Assembly (NCBI GenBank): GCA_017883235.1
Contig: JADGNY010000045.1
Coordinates: forward strand, 1 to 46,915
From: Thermoanaerobaculia bacterium
GTDB lineage: Bacteria; Acidobacteriota; Thermoanaerobaculia; Gp7-AA8
Direction: 5' to 3'
Length of the DNA stretch: 46,915 nt
The notes under the pieces were generated by a model that was given only the letters and a program-made list of their open reading frames with translations, did not search any database and was not told where the DNA came from. Below are positions 6,064 to 23,080 of this stretch, piece by piece (position 1 is the stretch's first letter; every line of letters starts with the position of its first letter). The position numbers were made by a program, and so were the translations under genes.

Positions 6064-6909
6064 TCACGTCGGCTCGCGTTCTTGCGCGTAAACATGGGTG
6101 AATTCGAGACCGAAGAAAAAGATCTGCGCGGACCAGTACGACCACAACAATACGACGACGATCGACCCGGCCGCCCCGAACGCCGAGCCGACAGCCGCCT
6201 TGCCTAGGTAGATGCCGAGCGCAAACTTGCCGATGACAAAGAGGACCGCCGTCACCGCAGCGCCGAGACGGACGTCGCGCCACCCCACCGACGCCTGTGG
6301 CAGGTAACGAAATACGGCCGCGAACAGCGCCGTCAGCACCAGTGTGGAGACGAGAAGCTGCGTGGCCTGCCACAGCAATTCGCCACCCACGAGGCGAGCG
6401 GCGGCGTACTTTCCCGTGACGGCGATGGCGGCGTCGGCAATGACCGATGCCAGGACGACCCCGCCGACCGCAAACACGAGAAGCATCGACGCCAGTTTCT
6501 TCTTGAGCCCGCGGACCCTTCCGACATCTTCGTCCGCCTTCTCACTCCAGATCGTCCGCAGGGCGTCGTCAATCTGCCGGTACACACCCGCCAAGCCAAA
6601 GTACATCGACATGAAACCGAGCGTGGTGGCCAGCAATCCGGCGCGCCGCGGCGTGGCGTCTTTGATCATTGCGGCGATAGCGATGCCAGCAGCGGATCCG
6701 AAGCTACCTCCGATGCGGTCGAGGATCTCCAGTTGTGCCTGTTGCCTTCCGAAGAGGCTTCCCGCAATGGCAATTGCAATCAGCAGCGTTGGTGCGATCG
6801 AAAAGACGATGTAGAACGCGAGCGCGGCGCCGAAACGTGAAGCGTTGTGTTTTCTGAACGCAGTGAGCGTCAGACGGCTTGCCGTCGCGAGTCGTGGTCG
6901 TTTCGACAT
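6064..6909 (-). CDS. YihY/virulence factor BrkB family membrane protein
   Basis: Integral membrane protein of 281 aa of the YihY (formerly 'RNase BN') family. It has about six membrane helices; the molecular role is not settled. Signatures are HNASRFGAALAFYIVFSIAP near the start, GFMSMYFGLAGVYRQIDDALRTIW in the middle (the family's conserved ALN.IW-type segment), FRYLPQASVGWRDVRLGAAV, and GSIVVVLLWSYWSAQIFFFG at the end. Length matches the family. The start at 6909 has no strong ribosome-binding site. It converges on the lipoprotein gene, and its start faces the start of the next gene. Confidence 0.9.
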   Translation of the reverse strand: MSKRPRLATASRLTLTAFRKHNASRFGAALAFYIVFSIAPTLLIAIAIAGSLFGRQQAQLEILDRIGGSFGSAAGIAIAAMIKDATPRRAGLLATTLGFMSMYFGLAGVYRQIDDALRTIWSEKADEDVGRVRGLKKKLASMLLVFAVGGVVLASVIADAAIAVTGKYAAARLVGGELLWQATQLLVSTLVLTALFAAVFRYLPQASVGWRDVRLGAAVTAVLFVIGKFALGIYLGKAAVGSAFGAAGSIVVVLLWSYWSAQIFFFGLEFTHVYAQEREPT

Positions 6910-13382: not shown

Positions 13383-13829
13383 TCATTCCTCGAACGAATT
13401 CACGATTAGCTGCGCGGGTAATCGTTCCGACGTACTCGAGATGCGCCATGTTGATCTGATTTGCCGGGAATGACGAAGGATCAGCGTGATCGCCCCAAGA
13501 ATCCTCATCTGTTTGCCTTCGGCGATCGGGTCGAGCTGATCGTCCATCAGCGCCCGCCGGCCCTGCTTCCGCCACCATCGGCCGGCGAAGGCGGCGCCAC
13601 GAGCGATGACGATCACCGCCTCTCCGGTTCGAGCGTTGCCGGCCCTGCGAGGCTCTACGACGAGGAAGTCGCCGGCGCTGACGCCGAGACAGGCGATGTT
13701 CGAGCCGGCGCGAAAGAGCTGGTCGCCAGGGTCCAGCATCAGTTCGTCAGGGAGAGGAACCAGCTCGCCCGCCGAGGCGGTGTCGATCGCTTCACCCTGC
13801 CAGATGGTTCCGTCGAGATGCACGGCCAC
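13383..13829 (-). CDS. S24/LexA-like fold protein lacking the catalytic lysine
   Basis: Protein of 148 aa resembling the C-terminal peptidase half of LexA/phage-repressor proteins: LDPGDQLFRAGSNIACLGVSAGDFLVVEPR matches the G-S-x...G...GD.v.Ve block with the nucleophile-position Ser retained, followed by TGEAVIVIARG. Where LexA-type proteins carry the general-base Lys (V-K-R-...), this has AGRWWRK, so self-cleavage is doubtful. GTG 13829 is chosen for a strong AGGAGG 5 bases upstream; the longer frame upstream overlaps the next gene. There is no HTH in this protein; a separate HTH gene lies 38 bases upstream on the same strand, as if a LexA-like repressor were split in two. The last 28 residues look unrelated to the fold. 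Confidence 0.65.
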   Translation of the reverse strand: MAVHLDGTIWQGEAIDTASAGELVPLPDELMLDPGDQLFRAGSNIACLGVSAGDFLVVEPRRAGNARTGEAVIVIARGAAFAGRWWRKQGRRALMDDQLDPIAEGKQMRILGAITLILRHSRQIRSTWRISSTSERLPAQLIVNSFEE

Positions 13830-13867
13830 GATGGCCTCCTCTCTCGCGCGTTTTGGTACAGTCGGAC

Positions 13868-14089
13868 CTAAACGGGATACTCGGGGTCCAGCTCGAACAG
13901 GTCCGACGCCTTTACCCGTTCGCCCGACAAGCGGTGCAAGGCGCCCGTGATCGCGGCGATGCATTGTCTGCTGGGGTCGATCTTCCCTTCACGAACCATG
14001 AGAAGGTGGACCCGGCTGTAGCCTGATTCCCTGACGAGATGGATGGGCTTGATCCTGTGGCTTTTCAGGTATGCCTCTAATTTCACCAT
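13868..14089 (-). CDS. Small HTH (XRE-like) regulator
   Basis: A 73-aa protein starting MVKLEAYLKSHRIKPIHLVR, with the helix-turn-helix pattern HLVRESGYSRVHLLMVREGK (residues 18-37) typical of Cro/C1-type DNA-binding domains, then a short helical tail ending FELDPEYPV. A TATTAT hexamer lies about 6 bases upstream on its strand. It is transcribed divergently from the HTH/TPR gene pair and just ahead of the S24-like gene, so the two short genes probably form an operon controlling themselves or the divergent genes. DNA binding is supported by the motif; the target is inference. Confidence 0.7.
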   Translation of the reverse strand: MVKLEAYLKSHRIKPIHLVRESGYSRVHLLMVREGKIDPSRQCIAAITGALHRLSGERVKASDLFELDPEYPV

Positions 14090-14183: not shown

Positions 14184-14729
14184 ATGGACGTCGAGAACAG
14201 CTTCGGGCTGGAATTGAGAGCCAGGCGGCTACTGCTCGGATACTCGGTGAAAAAGCTGGCGAAGCTGTCAGGCGTCAGCCGCCGATGGATCACCTGCGCC
14301 GAGGAAGGCAGCAATATCACCATCGAGGTCCTCAGGAAGTTGATGCAGACGATGAGGATGACCGTCATCACCATATTTCCCGGCCTCACGGCCGAAGCGG
14401 GTCTGGCGGATACGGGCATCGCCGAGCTCGCGGCGGCGGTGGAAGAGATCACCGGAAGCGCCGCGCTGGCACGGCAGGCAGGCGAACGGATCAAAAGTTT
14501 CGCCCTTGGGGTAGGGAAATCCGTCCCGAAAGACACTCCTGAGAATGAGGGCTTCAACGAGAGGGCCGCGGCTCTGGTCACGCATTTCACGGAACACGTG
14601 CGCTCGCTCAGCGATCCCGATAACTTACAGAAAGTTGAGAAGGCCGTGAGTAGCTTTCTGAGGCCGGAAGCGGATGCGCAAGGCACGGCCAAGGCGCCTC
14701 CGGGAAGGCGGAGGAAGAGCTCGGGCTAA
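14184..14729 (+). CDS. HTH (XRE-family) regulator with helical C-terminus
   Basis: Protein of 181 aa. ATG 14184 follows GGAGG by 5 bases and is preferred over 14109. Residues about 8-60 form a Cro/C1-type HTH: LELRARRLLLGYSVKKLAKL, SGVSRRWITCAEEGSN, then TIEVLRKLMQ. The remaining 110 residues are helical with Ala-rich segments and a basic end (GRRRKSSG), without recognised ligand domain. The TPR protein gene starts 10 bases after the stop, so the two are co-translated. In RRNPP regulators of Gram-positive bacteria the HTH and TPR parts sit in one polypeptide; here they are in adjacent genes. Confidence 0.8.
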   Translation: MDVENSFGLELRARRLLLGYSVKKLAKLSGVSRRWITCAEEGSNITIEVLRKLMQTMRMTVITIFPGLTAEAGLADTGIAELAAAVEEITGSAALARQAGERIKSFALGVGKSVPKDTPENEGFNERAAALVTHFTEHVRSLSDPDNLQKVEKAVSSFLRPEADAQGTAKAPPGRRRKSSG

Positions 14730-14739
14730 ACACGAACCA

Positions 14740-15915
14740 ATGGATCGTTCGGCCGGCGAAAGAAACGAAACGGGTGAGTTGCTGTTGCGGTTCCGACGTT
14801 GGCTCGACGATCCCGAGGCCTCCCCTGGGATCATTCGGGATCTCATCGGCCTGGACAACGAGCGGCTGGGAGAGTTCGTCCGGCTGAACACCGGCGCCGA
14901 GATGCTGTCCTCGATCAGGACGCTGCTGACTCGCTCTCGTGAAAGCTTGGCGGGCGCTCCGAGGGAAGCGATCGCCCTGACTCGATTGGCGACGGCCCTC
15001 GGCTCCTGTTACTTCACGGCCGACCCGCAACTCGATGCCGCGGTGGAAGGGGATGCCTGGAAGGCCCACGCCGATGCACTTCTCCGGGCCGGGGACTACA
15101 GCGAGGCGGACCGCGCCTGCCGGCAGGCGTCATCGTTCTACACCCTGGTTGATCCCGAAGACTGCCTGTACGAACGAACACAGCTCAACGTCACAGAGGC
15201 GAAAGTCGCTCATTTCCTAGGCGACGCGGAGCGGGCGCTCGCTCTCGCCGGCACTGCCGCAGCGACCCTCGCGCGGGCGTTTCCGAAAAAAAAGAAGGAC
15301 TACGTTCGCGCGCGGACGACCTTCGCGACAATCCTGGTGGCCGACTTTCAACGGTACGAGGAGGGGCTCAAGGCGCTCGAGGAGTGCGCCGAGCTCGCAA
15401 GACGTGACGGCGACACGGAAAGTCTCGCGAGCTTGGTCAACAATATTGGGCAGGTGTACGCGCGTATCGGCAAGCTCACGGAGGCGAAAGAGTGCTTCAC
15501 CACCGCGTTACAGGGTTTCACGAGCCTCGGGTTAAAGACCGACATGCCTCGCGTTCATGCCGGCTTAGCTCGTATCCTCATGCAAGAAGGACGTTTTAAC
15601 GAGGCTGTTTCGGAACATTACATGGCGAGAGCCGCCTATCTCGATCTAAGGATGCCGGTCGTTGCAGCCGAGGTGGATACGCACATCATCGAGGCTCTAT
15701 TCGCTGCCGGACGGACGAGAGACATCCCGGCACTGTGCGCTCTGGCAGTCGAGACATTCATGACGGCGAACTTGCCTCGCGAAGCAGCAAAGGCCCTGGC
15801 GTACATGAATGCCGCCGCTCAGCGCGGGACGCTTACGACCGACAAACTTGAGGACGTTCGGGAATTCTACCAACGGCTGCAAGCAGACCCCGACGAGCGG
15901 TTTGACTTTGATTGA
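14740..15915 (+). CDS. Tetratricopeptide repeat protein, partner of the HTH regulator
   Basis: Cytoplasmic protein of 391 aa made of helical hairpins. TPR-like repeats are seen at HADALLRAGDYSEADRACRQ, YERTQLNVTEAKVAHFLGDA, NNIGQVYARIGKLTEAKECF (closest to consensus), VHAGLARILMQEGRFNEAVS and AEVDTHIIEALFAAGR. There is no signal peptide. An N-terminal region of about 95 residues precedes the repeats (FRRWLDDPEA..GIIRDLIGLD). ATG 14740 is chosen because it lies just after the HTH stop; an earlier in-frame start would overlap that gene heavily. TPR arrays commonly bind peptides or protein tails. A terminator follows 3 bases after the stop, then a convergent gene for a small secreted peptide, which suggests a sensing pair. 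Confidence 0.85.
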   Translation: MDRSAGERNETGELLLRFRRWLDDPEASPGIIRDLIGLDNERLGEFVRLNTGAEMLSSIRTLLTRSRESLAGAPREAIALTRLATALGSCYFTADPQLDAAVEGDAWKAHADALLRAGDYSEADRACRQASSFYTLVDPEDCLYERTQLNVTEAKVAHFLGDAERALALAGTAAATLARAFPKKKKDYVRARTTFATILVADFQRYEEGLKALEECAELARRDGDTESLASLVNNIGQVYARIGKLTEAKECFTTALQGFTSLGLKTDMPRVHAGLARILMQEGRFNEAVSEHYMARAAYLDLRMPVVAAEVDTHIIEALFAAGRTRDIPALCALAVETFMTANLPREAAKALAYMNAAAQRGTLTTDKLEDVREFYQRLQADPDERFDFD

Positions 15916-15918
15916 ATG

Positions 15919-15948
15919 AGGAGAGCGGCCTAGCGCCGCTCTCCTTTA
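15919..15948. terminator. Hairpin terminator between TPR and peptide genes
   Basis: Perfect 11-bp stem AGGAGAGCGGC / GCCGCTCTCCT with loop CTAGC, followed by a short T-rich end on the forward strand. It is positioned to end both convergent transcripts. Confidence 0.8.
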
Positions 15949-15976
15949 CAAACTCAAGTTGTTTCGAACACCCACT

Positions 15977-16150
15977 TTACGGCCTCGGAAACGACCAATC
16001 GTACGTATCGAGAGCGTGGACGATCCGAGTGATGAGCCGGCTGATGGCCGATCGTGACGGTTGATCGCCGTTGTCACGGCGAGGAGCGGCCAGGAGCGGC
16101 GAGGACAGGGCGGCGAGGAGCAGAACAACAGCGGTGACGCGTTTAGACAT
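15977..16150 (-). CDS. 57-aa secreted peptide, candidate signalling peptide
   Basis: Small gene convergent with the HTH-TPR pair. ATG 16150 has an ideal GGAGGA 4-5 bases upstream. The product starts MSKRVTAVVLLLAALSSPLL and continues AAPRRDN, a clear Sec signal peptide with a likely cut near LLAA-P. The mature part is about 35 residues, with basic/polar start, an amphipathic segment SAISRLITRIVHALDTY, and a C-terminal DWSFPRP. There is no cysteine, so it is not a lipoprotein. The TPR protein lies tail-to-tail 62 bases away. Position, size and export signal resemble pre-pro-peptides of Rap-Phr or NprR-type systems, but homology to those is not seen and the role is inference. Confidence 0.75.
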   Translation of the reverse strand: MSKRVTAVVLLLAALSSPLLAAPRRDNGDQPSRSAISRLITRIVHALDTYDWSFPRP

Positions 16151-16184
16151 GATTCCTCCAAATGTCCCGCAGGACGGTTAGTTT

Positions 16185-16202
16185 GGAGGAGCGCTCCCCT
16201 CA
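16185..16202. promoter_or_regulatory. Palindrome upstream of the secreted-peptide gene
   Basis: The perfect 10-bp palindrome GGAGCGCTCC (16188-16197) lies about 38 bases upstream of the peptide start. On the peptide strand it falls between a TTGAGG and a TAACCG hexamer spaced by 17 bases, so it could be an operator. Weak evidence. Confidence 0.3.
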
Positions 16203-16363
16203 ACGTTAAGGAGTGTCATTTCGAGGGCGTTTCCCTACGGCGCTACCTTACCCGCAGGCCGCGTGCTACCATACACGCATCCATTCAACGGGCGTTTTGA
16301 AGAGGTACCGCCGCCGGCGGTTTGATGCCCGACAGCCCCCGATAGCCTTAAGCGCTTTACGGT

Positions 16364-16560
16364 CGGAGCGCTGGCGTCTCGCCGGCTGGCCCGGCGTGCG
16401 TCCCGCCGCCGGGTTACCAGCGTTGGGAGTCTTGCCGGTTCGGGGACGAGACGTCAGAGATCCGGAAACCACCGCCGCCCGCCCGGCAAGACTCGAAACA
16501 TTTGCGCTAACCCGGCGGCGGGACGCACGCCGAGCCAGCCGGCGAGACGCCAGCGCTCCG
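16364..16560. repeat. Large inverted repeat with 53-bp arms
   Basis: Arms 16364-16416 and 16508-16560 are reverse complements with about one mismatch (CGGAGCGCTGGCGTCTCGCC ... GCGGGTTA and its complement). The 91-base spacer contains a smaller nested inverted repeat (GAGTCTTGCCGG / CCGGCAAGACTC), so the whole can fold as one long hairpin. A third, partial copy of the arm (CCCGGCGAGACGCCAG) follows at about 16578-16594. It looks like a palindromic intergenic element rather than a gene. Confidence 0.85.
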
Positions 16561-16841: not shown

Positions 16842-17219
16842 ATGACGGCGGAATCTCTTCCCCCGAAGCAGAATCCGTTCCGGCAGATCATCATACTGAT
16901 CTGACGGAACCAGAATTCGATCTGACAGATCATCATAATGATCTGACAGATCATTATACTGATCTGCAGGAACCAAAATTCATTCTGACAGATCATCATA
17001 ATATTCTGTCAGAACGAATTTTGATCCTCGCGGAGCTCTCCGCCGCTCCGCCGGAAACAAAAATCGATCCTTCATAACGAAATCTGTTTCCACCAGACCG
17101 CCCGCGCGGTCCGTCAGAAGGAAAATCCGCTCCGCCGGAATGATTTTCTGTTCTTGCAGAATATTATAATGATCTGTTGTTGCCAAAATCGTTTAGTCGG
17201 GACAAACAGCACCGTATAC
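16842..17219. repeat. Array of degenerate 21-nt palindromic units (array 1)
   Basis: About 18 consecutive 21-base units without spacers. Unit boundaries can be placed at 16884, 16905, 16926, 16947, 16968, 16989, 17010, 17031, 17052, 17073, 17094, 17115, 17136, 17157, 17178 and 17199. Many units are near-palindromes, for example CAGATCATCATAATGATCTG, CAGATCATTATACTGATCTG and CGGAGCTCTCCGCCGCTCCG. Because 21 is a multiple of three, the frames stay open and give a 7-residue period (DQYDDLP, DHYDDLS, ERIFLLT on the reverse strand). No ribosome-binding site precedes these frames. It lies 190 bases upstream of the metallopeptidase cluster. Confidence 0.8.
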
Positions 17220-18084: not shown

Positions 18085-19149
18085 ATGCGAACCATACAAC
18101 ATTCAACCTGTAGTGTCATTCCGCGCCACATGCTGCAACACATCGCCGTGCATGGTGACGATGATGCCCGCGAAACGGTCTCGTCGACGTTGCACCACTC
18201 GGCACTGATCGCCCGCGAGCGTGCCGTCAACTTCCTCAAGCCGGCGGCGCGTACGAAGAGCGGCGGCAACAAGCGCAGCGTGTACGACGCCCAGAACCTT
18301 CGCCACCTACCCGGCGCCTTTGTGATGAACGAGACCCGAGGCGAGAGCAAGGATGTCGAAGTGAACGAAGCGTTCGCCGGCTCCGGCGCGATGGCCGGCT
18401 TCCTCAAGAACGTCTTCTTCCGCGACTCCATCGACGGCAAGGGGATGGCTCTCATCTCCACCGTTCATTACGGCAACCGTTTCGACAATGCCATGTGGAA
18501 CGGCAAGCAGATGATCTATGGAGACGGTGACGGAAAGGTGTTCACCCGTTTCACCGGCGACATCGCCGTGATCGGCCACGAGCATGCGCACGGCATCACC
18601 CAGCACGACGCCGGCCTTCTCTATTCGGGCCAGAGCGGCGCTCTGAATGAGCACATCTCCGACGCAATGGGCATCATGCTCAAGCAGTATTACCTCTCGC
18701 TGAAAGCGGACCAGTCGGACTGGCTCATCGGCAAGGGAATCTTCGCACCGGGCATCGCCGGCGAGGCCCTTCGCTCGATGAGGGCCCCCGGCACCGCGTA
18801 CGACGATCCGATCCTCGGCCAGGACCCCCAACCCTCTCACATGAAGGACTACGTGCGCTCCGCCGACGACAGCGGCGGCGTGCATATCAACTCCGGAATC
18901 CCCAATCACGCCTTCTTCCTCCTCGCCACGGACATCGGCGGCTACACATGGAGCGTGGCCGGCCGCATCTGGTACGAGGTGGTGCAGCACCGCCTCTCTC
19001 CCGAATCCGGTTTTCAGGACTTCGCCAACGCAACCGTCGCGGTAGCCGGCGAGATCTACGGCGAGGGGGGGCAGGTGCAGAGCGCGGTGAGGAATGCCTG
19101 GTCGGCTGTCGGTCTGGCCGTTCCGCCGTCAATGGCCAAAGCGGCGTAG
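18085..19149 (+). CDS. Protealysin-like M4 (thermolysin-family) metallopeptidase
   Basis: Zinc endopeptidase of 354 aa. Zinc site VIGHEHAHG (His165, Glu166, His169) and the third ligand Glu189 in GALNEHISDAMG; the catalytic-histidine loop is GGVHINSGIPNHAFF (His267). The N-terminus CSVIPRHMLQHIAVHGD (residues 9-25) matches the short protealysin-type propeptide rather than the long FTP/PepSY propeptide of thermolysin. No signal peptide is visible, as in protealysin, which implies a cytoplasmic zymogen or non-classical release. The active site appears complete. A good AAAGGAG precedes the ATG at 18085. It is flanked by two unknown genes in the same orientation; no emfourin-type inhibitor gene is recognised. 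Confidence 0.93.
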   Translation: MRTIQHSTCSVIPRHMLQHIAVHGDDDARETVSSTLHHSALIARERAVNFLKPAARTKSGGNKRSVYDAQNLRHLPGAFVMNETRGESKDVEVNEAFAGSGAMAGFLKNVFFRDSIDGKGMALISTVHYGNRFDNAMWNGKQMIYGDGDGKVFTRFTGDIAVIGHEHAHGITQHDAGLLYSGQSGALNEHISDAMGIMLKQYYLSLKADQSDWLIGKGIFAPGIAGEALRSMRAPGTAYDDPILGQDPQPSHMKDYVRSADDSGGVHINSGIPNHAFFLLATDIGGYTWSVAGRIWYEVVQHRLSPESGFQDFANATVAVAGEIYGEGGQVQSAVRNAWSAVGLAVPPSMAKAA

Positions 19150-19996: not shown

Positions 19997-22900
19997 ATGG
20001 AAACGCGGGATCTTCTTGACGCTCTGGGCTATAGCGGCTCGCCGAATTGTCTGACGGGCGGTCAGTTGCATTTTGCCCCCGACTACGGTCATGTTTTCCG
20101 CCGGGCAGCGGAGGGCGCGGGGCTCGAAGCCGTTTATTGCCTCCGCGCGTCCGCTCAGAACCCTGCGCACGAGGTCATTCCTGTCAGCTACGTCTGCAAG
20201 GCCACCTCGTACGAGCACGCAGACGAGATTCATCGCCTTGTCTGGAATCAGAATGTCGTGCCCTTTCTTGTGGTGCTGGCGCCTCAGGGCGTCCGTGTCT
20301 ACACCGGCTTCGAGCGCCAGGACAGGCCAGGAAAGCGGCAGCATCTGCTTGAGTCAGACATAGCAGGCGTAGCGTCTCGTCTCGCCGTGGTTTCATCGGC
20401 ATCCATTGACAGCGGCAATATCTGGGATCATCTCGGTGAGCGAGCAGACCCAAAACGTCGTGTGGAGTGGCGACTGCTGAAGGATCTCGAAGAGCTCGAG
20501 AAGATCCTGGTCAAGGATGGGCTGAAAGAGGCTCCCCTCGTTCACACATTGATCGGGAAGCTCCTTTATCTGCACTACCTGCGGCGACGCGACATTCTCT
20601 CGGACGCGAGGTTGGCGAAATGGGATCTTACATGGACCGAGGTCGCTACTCGAACAGCTCGCGTAAAATCGTTCCAGCGGGTTTGCGCACATCTCGATGA
20701 TTGGCTGAACGGCTCCGTCTTTCCGCTCACCACGCGAATGATGAGCGACATCGGCGCCGATCATTTGCAACGTGCAGCGGGCGTTTTCGCGGGCGACTCA
20801 CCCGGAGGCCAGCAGCATCTGGCGTTCGATGCCTACGACTTTTCATACATTCCGATCGAGACGCTTTCCGTCGTCTACGAACAGTTCCTTCATTCGAAGA
20901 AGAGTGCGGCAGAACCGAGTCTCGGCAGAAAACGCGGAGCCTATTACACACCGCTTCCGGTCGTGAACTTCATGATCGATCGCATGGACGAATTGAAACC
21001 GCTGCGTGCCGGGATGCGGGTGCTCGACCCGTCATGCGGATCAGGGGCGTTTCTGGTCCAGTGCTATCGCAAGCTGATCGAAGATCGTCTCCGCTCCCTG
21101 CCGACGCGGAAACTGCGCCCTCCGGAGCTCCGCGAGTTGCTCGTTCGGCATCTGTTCGGGATCGACGTCGATGCCGAGGCGTGCCGCGTCGCCGAGCTGT
21201 CGTTGCTGTTGACGATGCTCGACTACATCGACCTGCCCGACCTTACGAATACCAATTTCAAGCTGCCGAATCTGTCCGGAACCAACATCATCGAGGCCAA
21301 TGCGTTCGACGGCGTCCACGAGTTCATCGTGGGCGCGAAGGCGCGTGGATTCGACTGGGTGATCGGCAACCCGCCGTGGAACGAGATTTCAGCTGACACG
21401 AACGACCCGATCGACAAACCAGTGCTGGACTGGATCGTAGCCCACAGGAAAGAGTGCCCGACCGGCGGCAATCAGGCCGCGGAGGCGTTTATCTGGCGCG
21501 CCCGAGAGTTGGCTCATGCCGACGCGATCGCGGGTCTTCTGGTTCCCGCGATGATTCTCTTCAAGTCCGAATCAGAGGAGTTTCGCGAGAGGTTCTTTGG
21601 CGAGACGCAGCTCGCCTACGTTGCGAACTTTGCTAATCTCGCTGAGGTGCTCTTCGCCGGGCGATCGCGCGTTCCGGCAGCGGCGTTGATTTTTCGGCCG
21701 ACTGCCGGCGACGTCACCACGATACCGGTATTCTCGCCGCTCGTTGCCAATCAGGAACCGACGCGGCCGCGCAAGGAAGGCACACGCGTGGATACCTGGA
21801 GCCTCGTCATCGACGAGAACGAGTTGCGATTCGTGAATCAACACGATATCGCGAGTGGCGACTCACTCGTTTGGAAGTTGGCGGCATGGGGTTCTGAGCT
21901 CGATCGCGCGATCCTGCGCCGTATGAAATCGCTCAAGTCACTGGATGACATAGCGGACATCTTTGATCTGAAAATCGCACAAGGGATGGAGCTCCGAACG
22001 GAACCGAAAAAGGGCGGTGAACCTGCACAGCATCACCCGGAGCTGACCGGCAAGCTGACGATCAACCTGAATGCGTTGGCCGGATCACGGCTGCTGTTCA
22101 CATTTCCACGCAAAGCGCTTGCTCCCATACCAGCCGAGCAAACGTGGGTGCGCGTACGCGGTGGCTTTTCAGCGCCCGAAAGGGTCTCACGTCCACCTCA
22201 CATCCTGGTCAATGCGGCGCGGAATTGGGCGGTCTTCTCCGATGAGTACGTGATCGTGCCGCCTCTGCAGATAGGTGTGGCAGGTGGATCTGCTGACGTG
22301 TCTCTGCTGAAAGCGTTGACACTCTATCTGAACTCGCACTTCGTCCAGTACCACCAGTTCTTTGCGTCGGCACAGAGTGGCGTGAAGCGGGAAGTAAGCA
22401 CCCTTCGCGCGCTCCGTGAGCTTCCCATTCCCCGCTGCCTCATAGAACCTGACCACGGCGTGATCGAAACCTGGGCACACCTGCACGATGAGCTGGCGGC
22501 ATGCGACGCAGTGAGTGCGGGGACCCACGAATCACGAAAAGCAGGGTTGCTGTCAGAACTGAACAGAAACGTGAATGCAGCGCTGCATCTGCGCCAGCAG
22601 GATTGTATCCGGATTGCCGATTTCGTCGACGTAATGCTCGGTCTGCGCGACGGCAAGATCGAAGAAAGGGCCGTGCGGAGGCCGAAAGACGAAGAGCTGC
22701 GCGTCTACGCGGAACGTCTCAGGCATGACCTCGACGTCTTCATCGGCCGAGAGGCAGGCGCTACTCACGGGATTGACGTTTGGCATGATGAACACCAGGG
22801 GGTCATCGGGATCGATCTTCTCGCCAGCGACGGCGGCGTGACCGTGCATCCGTCTGCGCAAGGCACGGGTGTCATGAGTCAGCTCGCCGATCTGAGAAAT

Positions 22901-23080
22901 CAACTTGCTCGTGAGTTTTCGCAGTGGCGTTACTTCAATCGAAACCTGCGCCTCTTTGCGAACGATCGGGTGTACTTGTTCAAACCGATGCAGCGATTCC
23001 ACTGGCTCGAAAGCCAGGCGATTCAGGATGCCGGCGAGGTCGTCGGACTCGTCCTCCATCGACTCCGTGCACCCGCATGA
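19997..23080 (+). CDS. N6-adenine DNA methyltransferase, large type IIG/PglX-like protein
   Basis: Protein of 1027 aa. Motif I is RVLDPSCGSGAFL (residues 341-353) and motif IV is IGNPPW (456-461); just before them is RGAYYTPLPVV, typical of N6-adenine methylases of the Eco57I/type IIG group. The N-terminal 300 residues contain WNQNVVPFLVVLAPQGVRVY, similar to the N-terminal domains of such enzymes, but no clear PD-(D/E)xK nuclease site is seen there. The C-terminal 400 residues would hold target recognition (LKALTLYLNSHFVQYHQFF, ALRELPIPRCL). ATG 19997 follows GGAG. Its last four bases overlap the start of the next gene. It probably acts in restriction-modification or phage defence with that partner. 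Confidence 0.9.
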   Translation: METRDLLDALGYSGSPNCLTGGQLHFAPDYGHVFRRAAEGAGLEAVYCLRASAQNPAHEVIPVSYVCKATSYEHADEIHRLVWNQNVVPFLVVLAPQGVRVYTGFERQDRPGKRQHLLESDIAGVASRLAVVSSASIDSGNIWDHLGERADPKRRVEWRLLKDLEELEKILVKDGLKEAPLVHTLIGKLLYLHYLRRRDILSDARLAKWDLTWTEVATRTARVKSFQRVCAHLDDWLNGSVFPLTTRMMSDIGADHLQRAAGVFAGDSPGGQQHLAFDAYDFSYIPIETLSVVYEQFLHSKKSAAEPSLGRKRGAYYTPLPVVNFMIDRMDELKPLRAGMRVLDPSCGSGAFLVQCYRKLIEDRLRSLPTRKLRPPELRELLVRHLFGIDVDAEACRVAELSLLLTMLDYIDLPDLTNTNFKLPNLSGTNIIEANAFDGVHEFIVGAKARGFDWVIGNPPWNEISADTNDPIDKPVLDWIVAHRKECPTGGNQAAEAFIWRARELAHADAIAGLLVPAMILFKSESEEFRERFFGETQLAYVANFANLAEVLFAGRSRVPAAALIFRPTAGDVTTIPVFSPLVANQEPTRPRKEGTRVDTWSLVIDENELRFVNQHDIASGDSLVWKLAAWGSELDRAILRRMKSLKSLDDIADIFDLKIAQGMELRTEPKKGGEPAQHHPELTGKLTINLNALAGSRLLFTFPRKALAPIPAEQTWVRVRGGFSAPERVSRPPHILVNAARNWAVFSDEYVIVPPLQIGVAGGSADVSLLKALTLYLNSHFVQYHQFFASAQSGVKREVSTLRALRELPIPRCLIEPDHGVIETWAHLHDELAACDAVSAGTHESRKAGLLSELNRNVNAALHLRQQDCIRIADFVDVMLGLRDGKIEERAVRRPKDEELRVYAERLRHDLDVFIGREAGATHGIDVWHDEHQGVIGIDLLASDGGVTVHPSAQGTGVMSQLADLRNQLAREFSQWRYFNRNLRLFANDRVYLFKPMQRFHWLESQAIQDAGEVVGLVLHRLRAPA

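Follow-up and report, generated by a model that had tools for sequence, protein, structure and literature searches.

The known RRNPP systems (Rap-Phr, NprR-NprX, PlcR-PapR and AimR) come from Firmicutes or from mobile elements of Firmicutes, and the large survey of these systems covered only Firmicutes and viruses (PMC10075063). The locus reported here is like them in that a small precursor gene with a Sec signal lies beside the gene of a 250–500 aa TPR protein, the precursor carries a short conserved C-terminal segment, paralogous cassettes have diverged tails, and the TPR protein is predicted to form a Rap/NprR-like superhelix; it is unlike them in that its host is a diderm member of the Acidobacteriota and the DNA-binding part is either a separate gene or replaced by an ECF sigma factor together with a zinc-finger/TPR protein. 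When the locus was screened for the five features used in published RRNPP detection (PMC10075063), all five were present: a precursor of suitable size, a Sec signal by a rule-based test, a receptor of 391 aa, TPR repeats, and adjacency of the two genes. We refer to the locus as RRNPP-like rather than as an RRNPP member, since its receptor scores higher against unrelated TPR proteins than against the RRNPP receptors.

The second point of comparison is the control of ECF sigma factors, for which oxidative stress, partner switching and mechanosensing are the mechanisms reviewed, and for which a sigma factor with TPRs as a C-terminal extension has been described (PMC8999054). In most relatives of our locus, an ECF sigma gene and the gene of a protein with N-terminal HxxxCxxC overlap by 4 nt, as in sigma factors paired with soluble zinc anti-sigma proteins (RpoE-ChrR, SigH-RshA); unlike those pairs, the sensor here is a TPR superhelix accompanied by an adjacent secreted peptide, and the copy that we started from has neither sigma factor nor zinc motif. 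The TPR-extended sigma factors, which we take to be group ECF42, likewise place a sigma factor and TPRs in one pathway, whereas here the TPRs belong to a separate anti-sigma-like protein with a secreted peptide. A literature search, with most subscription papers outside it, returned nothing on TPR anti-sigma proteins paired with a secreted peptide, nor on systems of this kind in Acidobacteriota.

The window, by which we mean the whole 46,915-nt stretch of DNA analyzed (contig JADGNY010000045.1 of a Thermoanaerobaculia bacterium, assembly GCA_017883235.1), contains an XRE/HTH_3 DNA-binding protein of 181 aa (14184–14729, plus strand; Pfam HTH_3, E 1.1e-6, above cut-off) and a TPR protein of 391 aa (14740–15915, plus strand; Pfam TPR_12, E 2.5e-9, TPR_1, TPR_2 and TPR_8), the proposed cytoplasmic peptide sensor, with paralogues across the family. 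The first-pass annotation had placed an XRE-type gene and a TPR gene 10 bases apart, and both the coordinates and the Pfam matches confirm this. It had also read a tail-to-tail secreted ORF of 57 aa ending in DWSFPRP, which is indeed present at 15977–16150 on the minus strand, convergent with the TPR gene and separated from it by 61 bp. This gene matched nothing in Pfam or NCBIfam; for that reason and because of their small size, genes of its kind will probably escape annotation. The "perfect terminator" claimed between the convergent genes proved overstated: the 12-bp hairpin at 15918–15946 is terminator-like only, since its tail is just TTT, a terminator scan did not call it, and the corresponding hairpin of a duplicate cassette lacks a T tail. 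The next gene downstream of the peptide gene on the same strand is a divergent 73-aa gene, HTH-like by eye, about 1.9 kb away (13868–14089, minus strand), beyond which is a 148-aa gene, S24-like by eye (13383–13829, minus strand); neither has a Pfam match, and both are duplicated with the cassette. Elsewhere in the window, the arms of a 53-bp inverted repeat (16364–16416 and 16508–16560, 98% complementary, 91 nt apart) lie just past the peptide promoter and look like a small repeat element, an array of ATCATCATAATGATCTGACAG-like repeats with 21-nt spacing occupies 16869–17023, and genes for a protealysin-type M4 peptidase (18085–19149) and a large Eco57I/MmeI-type methylase of the restriction-modification kind (19997–23080) are found downstream.

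The duplicate lies in the same genome (G000:C218) and includes the two divergent upstream genes (13383–14089), with DNA identity of 79–83%. The two peptides are 93% identical, differing at two signal-sequence and two tail residues, so that the mature-region differences are confined to the tail (DWSFPRP in the window, DLSWPRP in the duplicate) and the remainder is identical. Synonymous divergence (dS) between the copies is 0.91 for the TPR gene and 0.19–0.30 for the peptide, HTH and S24-like genes; thus, either receptor and tail moved apart and the other parts were kept, or recombination homogenized the flanks. Searching the home genome with the window peptide gave further weak matches, four of which lie beside TPR paralogues (C211 twice, C107 and C121) that a second search, with the window TPR protein as query, recovered on its own. 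The duplication and these matches together put the cassette far beyond chance.

To describe the association more widely, we sampled 18 genomes from 12 genera of one Thermoanaerobaculia family (uncultured soil Acidobacteria) and searched them separately with a profile built from 10 TPR proteins and one built from 11 peptides. An initial contig scan with the single window TPR protein as query had given no match, and a viral-contig scan with the same protein found no relative, so that a phage or virus origin is not supported; a scan with a sigma factor alignment placed the relatives in Acidobacteriota "gp7" and Thermoanaerobaculia metagenome-assembled genomes. TPR and peptide profile matches co-localized across the genera of the family, and peptide homologues occurred in most of the 18 genomes. 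Of the 24 peptide matches (E up to 1e-3) in genomes other than the home genome, about 23 adjoined a TPR match by hand count; the 11 seed peptides had been chosen beside home-genome TPR genes, while the matches in other genomes were not so chosen. Later matches of a wider peptide profile are not independent evidence because that profile was built from TPR neighbors. A profile-free rule called any ORF of 45–110 aa with an ATG start, a Shine-Dalgarno match of at least 5 and a signal-like N-terminus within 250 bp of the TPR gene's 3′ end. By this rule, a secreted small ORF stood at 46 of 62 family TPR genes, a count slightly biased by the few loci that had been fetched via peptide matches, compared with 2 of 21 where the TPR homologues belonged to other families in the class (p 2e-7) and with 2 of 264 for the remaining long ORFs at these loci (p 1e-39). 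That the small ORF is spurious and its position fortuitous might be suspected of a single short ORF in a genome of 62% GC, but the background rate, the homologues across the sample and the selection test described below (p 5e-7) make this so improbable that we rejected it.

The first-pass annotation had made its case depend on a short secreted ORF beside TPR relatives, and this held within the taxonomic family and mostly failed outside it, as the counts above show. In 149 genomes from the class and 396 from the phylum, convincing peptide-profile matches were limited to the family, with a few marginal ones elsewhere. As TPR homologues outside the family mostly lack a peptide, the pairing is best described as a lineage-specific invention. 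Other families of the class (G053–G056, G059–G060, G085–G091) have from 7 to at least 11 TPR-family copies per genome, and the loci inspected there were mostly without a secreted peptide; of these loci, L113 has a Cys-rich secreted ORF nearby and L129 a secreted ORF whose tail contains PPP. Within the family, some TPR genes had no nearby peptide in the profile-free test. On one contig, a degraded-looking ECF sigma and TPR copy without peptide (L033, 4445–5520) sits beside two intact systems. A few peptides also had no TPR neighbor (G007:C57 and G000:C101). Peptide genes in this situation were seen at L088 (4003–4170, ending DLSWPHP) and at L091 (approximately 6070–6531, a tandem of IVWPRP and IVWPHP), and these orphans were possibly left after receptor loss or are sensed by a receptor elsewhere. 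One further candidate orphan (G016:C44:360025) was dropped on finding that TPR-like sequence adjoins it.

The window precursor reads MSKRVTAVVLLLAALSSPLLA|APRRDNGDQPSRSAISRLITRIVHALDTYDWSFPRP, where the bar marks the probable signal peptidase site. Codons 1–21 (16088–16150, minus strand) form a Sec-type signal sequence with predicted cleavage at LLA|APRRD, which would leave a mature part of 36 aa, in keeping with an AxA|xP pattern seen family-wide, and the window peptide and most relatives passed a rule-based test for a basic N-end, a hydrophobic core and an AxA-like site. Relatives are 54–106 aa long and share a plan in which the AxA|xP signal sequence is followed by a basic helix rich in I, V, R and K and then by a C-terminal tail, ending either in PxP (WSFPRP, EWSWPVP, LSWPHP, IVWPRP, TPPKP) or in PPG (SLPPG, SYPPG). 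The window motif, WSFPRP (codons 52–57; 15980–15997, minus strand), is the proposed end of the signal. Conservation of the C-terminus and purifying selection on the peptide gene, both of which the first-pass annotation had treated as decisive, were recovered: PxP or PPG ends recur across the family, and six non-overlapping comparisons gave 88 synonymous and 116 non-synonymous changes (p 5e-7), where neutrality predicts 27% synonymous. One pair left out of that sum (L093/L043) showed no constraint (ratio about 1). Tandem peptide genes also occur, with four at L056 and two each at L032 and L065.

Mature parts of 29–50 aa with a net charge of +1 to +5 and a basic amphipathic segment would also suit an output rather than a signal, namely a secreted cationic amphipathic effector or antimicrobial controlled by a neighboring regulator that senses some other cytoplasmic cue. 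Consistent with export of such a product, one orthologous group has a DrrA/GldA-type ABC ATPase and an ABC-2 permease after the peptide gene. However, the cassettes of convergent loci include neither an exporter nor an immunity gene, the strongest conservation falls on the last few residues and not on the helix, and the precursors in which a PPG-like motif is repeated internally (L047, L043 and L093) have no helix. Tail class also follows the receptor, matching that of the nearest TPR relative at 0.86 compared with 0.52 after shuffling (p 0.0002), a correspondence to which shared ancestry contributes; a Mantel comparison of TPR with mature-peptide distances was weak (rho 0.10). We regard the effector explanation as less likely than signaling, and as its main rival.

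A signal sequence combined with a proline-containing C-terminal end is likewise a property of the arrest peptides SecM, VemP and ApdA/ApdP (RAPP), and the peptide could be imagined as a translation-arrest monitor of the SecM/ApdP kind, whose proline-rich extreme C-terminus would stall the ribosome according to secretion and control a downstream gene in cis. The membrane-transporter gene directly downstream in the orthologous group just mentioned would fit this, yet the next gene in the window, as at other convergent loci, is the convergent TPR gene, so that no conserved cis downstream gene exists at such loci. The tails, moreover, vary (WSFPRP, SLPPG, TPPKP) and are not RAPP-like, and the constant neighbor is a TPR regulator rather than a gene of the localization machinery. 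We consider translational arrest very unlikely.

The partner of the TPR protein differs among loci. Of the 57 long TPR proteins compared, 38 are encoded after an ECF sigma gene, the two genes overlapping by 4 nt in most cases. The N-terminal HxxxCxxC zinc motif is present in 42 of the 57, and Pfam zf-HC2 was matched in 6 of 48. At the window, no ECF sigma gene adjoins the regulator, its place being taken by the HTH_3 gene, and the motif HxxxCxxC is absent from the TPR protein; the HTH version was otherwise found at C218, G008:C30, G008:C180 and G016:C48. The earlier description of HTH and TPR as separate genes is therefore right for the window and describes a minority form of the system. Since the partner is either an HTH protein or an ECF sigma factor, what stays the same across loci is the pairing of TPR protein and peptide, and what is exchanged is the transcription factor. 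A small hydrophobic basic peptide beside an XRE gene, in a cassette duplicated together with S24-like and HTH genes, could also bring to mind a toxin-antitoxin or other addiction module, but most relatives have an ECF sigma factor and no antitoxin, a cleavable AxA|xP signal with a conserved proline-rich tail is atypical for membrane toxins, and both tandem and orphan peptide genes exist, which together leave an addiction module extremely unlikely.

Upstream of the window peptide gene is an ECF-type promoter, GTAGGGA-N14-GACACTC (16211–16238, minus strand), identified from pattern counts. The relaxed motif GTAG[GC]-N12-22-[GA][TA]CAC precedes 22 of 44 peptide genes, with 0.27 expected by shuffling, and many of the loci whose peptide gene lacks it have the motif ahead of the sigma operon. 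From this position and the CGTC-like −10 element, we infer that an ECF sigma factor reads the motif, and its occurrence at both peptide genes and sigma operons suggests autoregulation. The strict pattern GTAGGGA-N13/14-G[TA]CACTC has 28 sites in the genome (L134–L161) and none for the reversed control. Several of these sites precede membrane proteins and sigma operons, which suggests an uncharacterized ECF regulon. Because many sites precede unrelated genes, the promoter represents a wider ECF-type class and is not private to the peptide system; a secreted effector would equally be expected to carry such a promoter as a regulon member. A tentative second copy of the pattern (14511–14538, plus strand), some 200 bp ahead of the TPR gene, falls within the HTH gene and is kept in the C218 copy, a conservation that is ambiguous because the site is within coding sequence.

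The ribosome-binding site of the peptide gene, called ideal in the first-pass annotation, is real and is predicted to be sequestered. A 5′ UTR hairpin (16154–16190, minus strand) is predicted to pair TCCTCCAAA with TTTGGAGGA and so to hide the Shine-Dalgarno sequence. Most peptide genes have the palindrome GAGGGCGCCCTC between promoter and start codon, whose counterpart in the window, from leader comparison, is GGAGCGCTCC (16188–16197); the right arm of the palindrome can pair with the Shine-Dalgarno sequence, enclosing a small stem of variable sequence. In predicted folds, mean Shine-Dalgarno pairing was 0.85 for peptide genes and 0.59 for 147 control genes (p 2e-11), the inner stems of the leaders were more stable than shuffles (Stouffer z −12.8), and the three genomic sites that fit GGGCGCCCTCC-N8-40-GGAGGG all precede these peptide genes. 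The leader hairpin gave nothing above threshold in Rfam. No compensatory pair was found by consensus covariation in a MAFFT leader alignment, as the inner loops vary in length and the Shine-Dalgarno arm is nearly invariant; the folding evidence thus consists of per-sequence folds without formal covariation support.

The AlphaFold2 model of the window TPR protein (pLDDT 90.6) is an all-helical superhelix, and the model of a relative with the zinc motif is likewise all-helical. The best bacterial structural matches of the window model were Rap-pheromone (Z 24.1, rmsd 4.4 over 285 residues) and NprR-NprX (Z 21.7), and the best overall were eukaryotic LGN/Pins chains (Z about 27), so the similarity is not specific because eukaryotic TPR proteins outscore Rap. 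Profile comparison behaved alike, with matches to RapI (6e-14) and NprR (6e-13) and higher scores for unrelated TPR proteins. The modeled fold is compatible with peptide binding and is no proof of kinship.

With moderate confidence, we favor the reading that the HTH, TPR and peptide genes form a peptide-signaling cassette in which the secreted peptide is sensed by the cytoplasmic TPR protein and induces its own expression. The 57-aa precursor would be exported by Sec, signal peptidase and further proteolysis would release a short C-terminal peptide of approximately DWSFPRP, and an oligopeptide permease would return it to the cytoplasm; the genome encodes at least five SBP_bac_5 oligopeptide-binding proteins. 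The re-imported peptide would then bind the TPR superhelix and alter its partner, which is the HTH protein here and in most relatives would be an ECF sigma factor held by the zinc-finger/TPR anti-sigma protein. The activated regulon would include the peptide gene, giving autoinduction, and the hairpin that sequesters the Shine-Dalgarno sequence may act as a second, translational gate. Weighing against this reading are the peptide genes and family TPR genes that lack each other, the exporter genes after the peptide gene in one orthologous group, the finding of the promoter motif at only half of the peptide genes, the weak Mantel correlation and the better fold match of eukaryotic TPR proteins. 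The peptide-signaling proposal of the first-pass annotation has gained family-wide linkage, a conserved tail and purifying selection, and its central step, recognition of the peptide as a signal by the TPR protein, is inferred.

A broader scenario, which we find possible and hold somewhat tentatively, is that of a diderm phylum with its own peptide quorum sensing, in which re-imported peptides bind TPR anti-sigma proteins and free ECF sigma factors, or act on HTH proteins, with autoinduction from ECF promoters and a leader that masks the Shine-Dalgarno sequence. Up to a dozen such channels might run in parallel per genome, told apart by tails such as WSFPRP, LSWPRP, ISLPPG and IVWPHP. As the candidate peptides, which can be synthesized, and the promoters are concrete, the claim is testable in a laboratory strain. 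The pairs look like an undescribed peptide-signaling system outside the Gram-positive bacteria; if this is true, a largely uncultured diderm phylum would be added to the range of intracellular peptide sensing, with approximately 45 receptor-peptide pairs in soil Acidobacteriota, and TPR peptide sensing would be coupled to ECF sigma factors.
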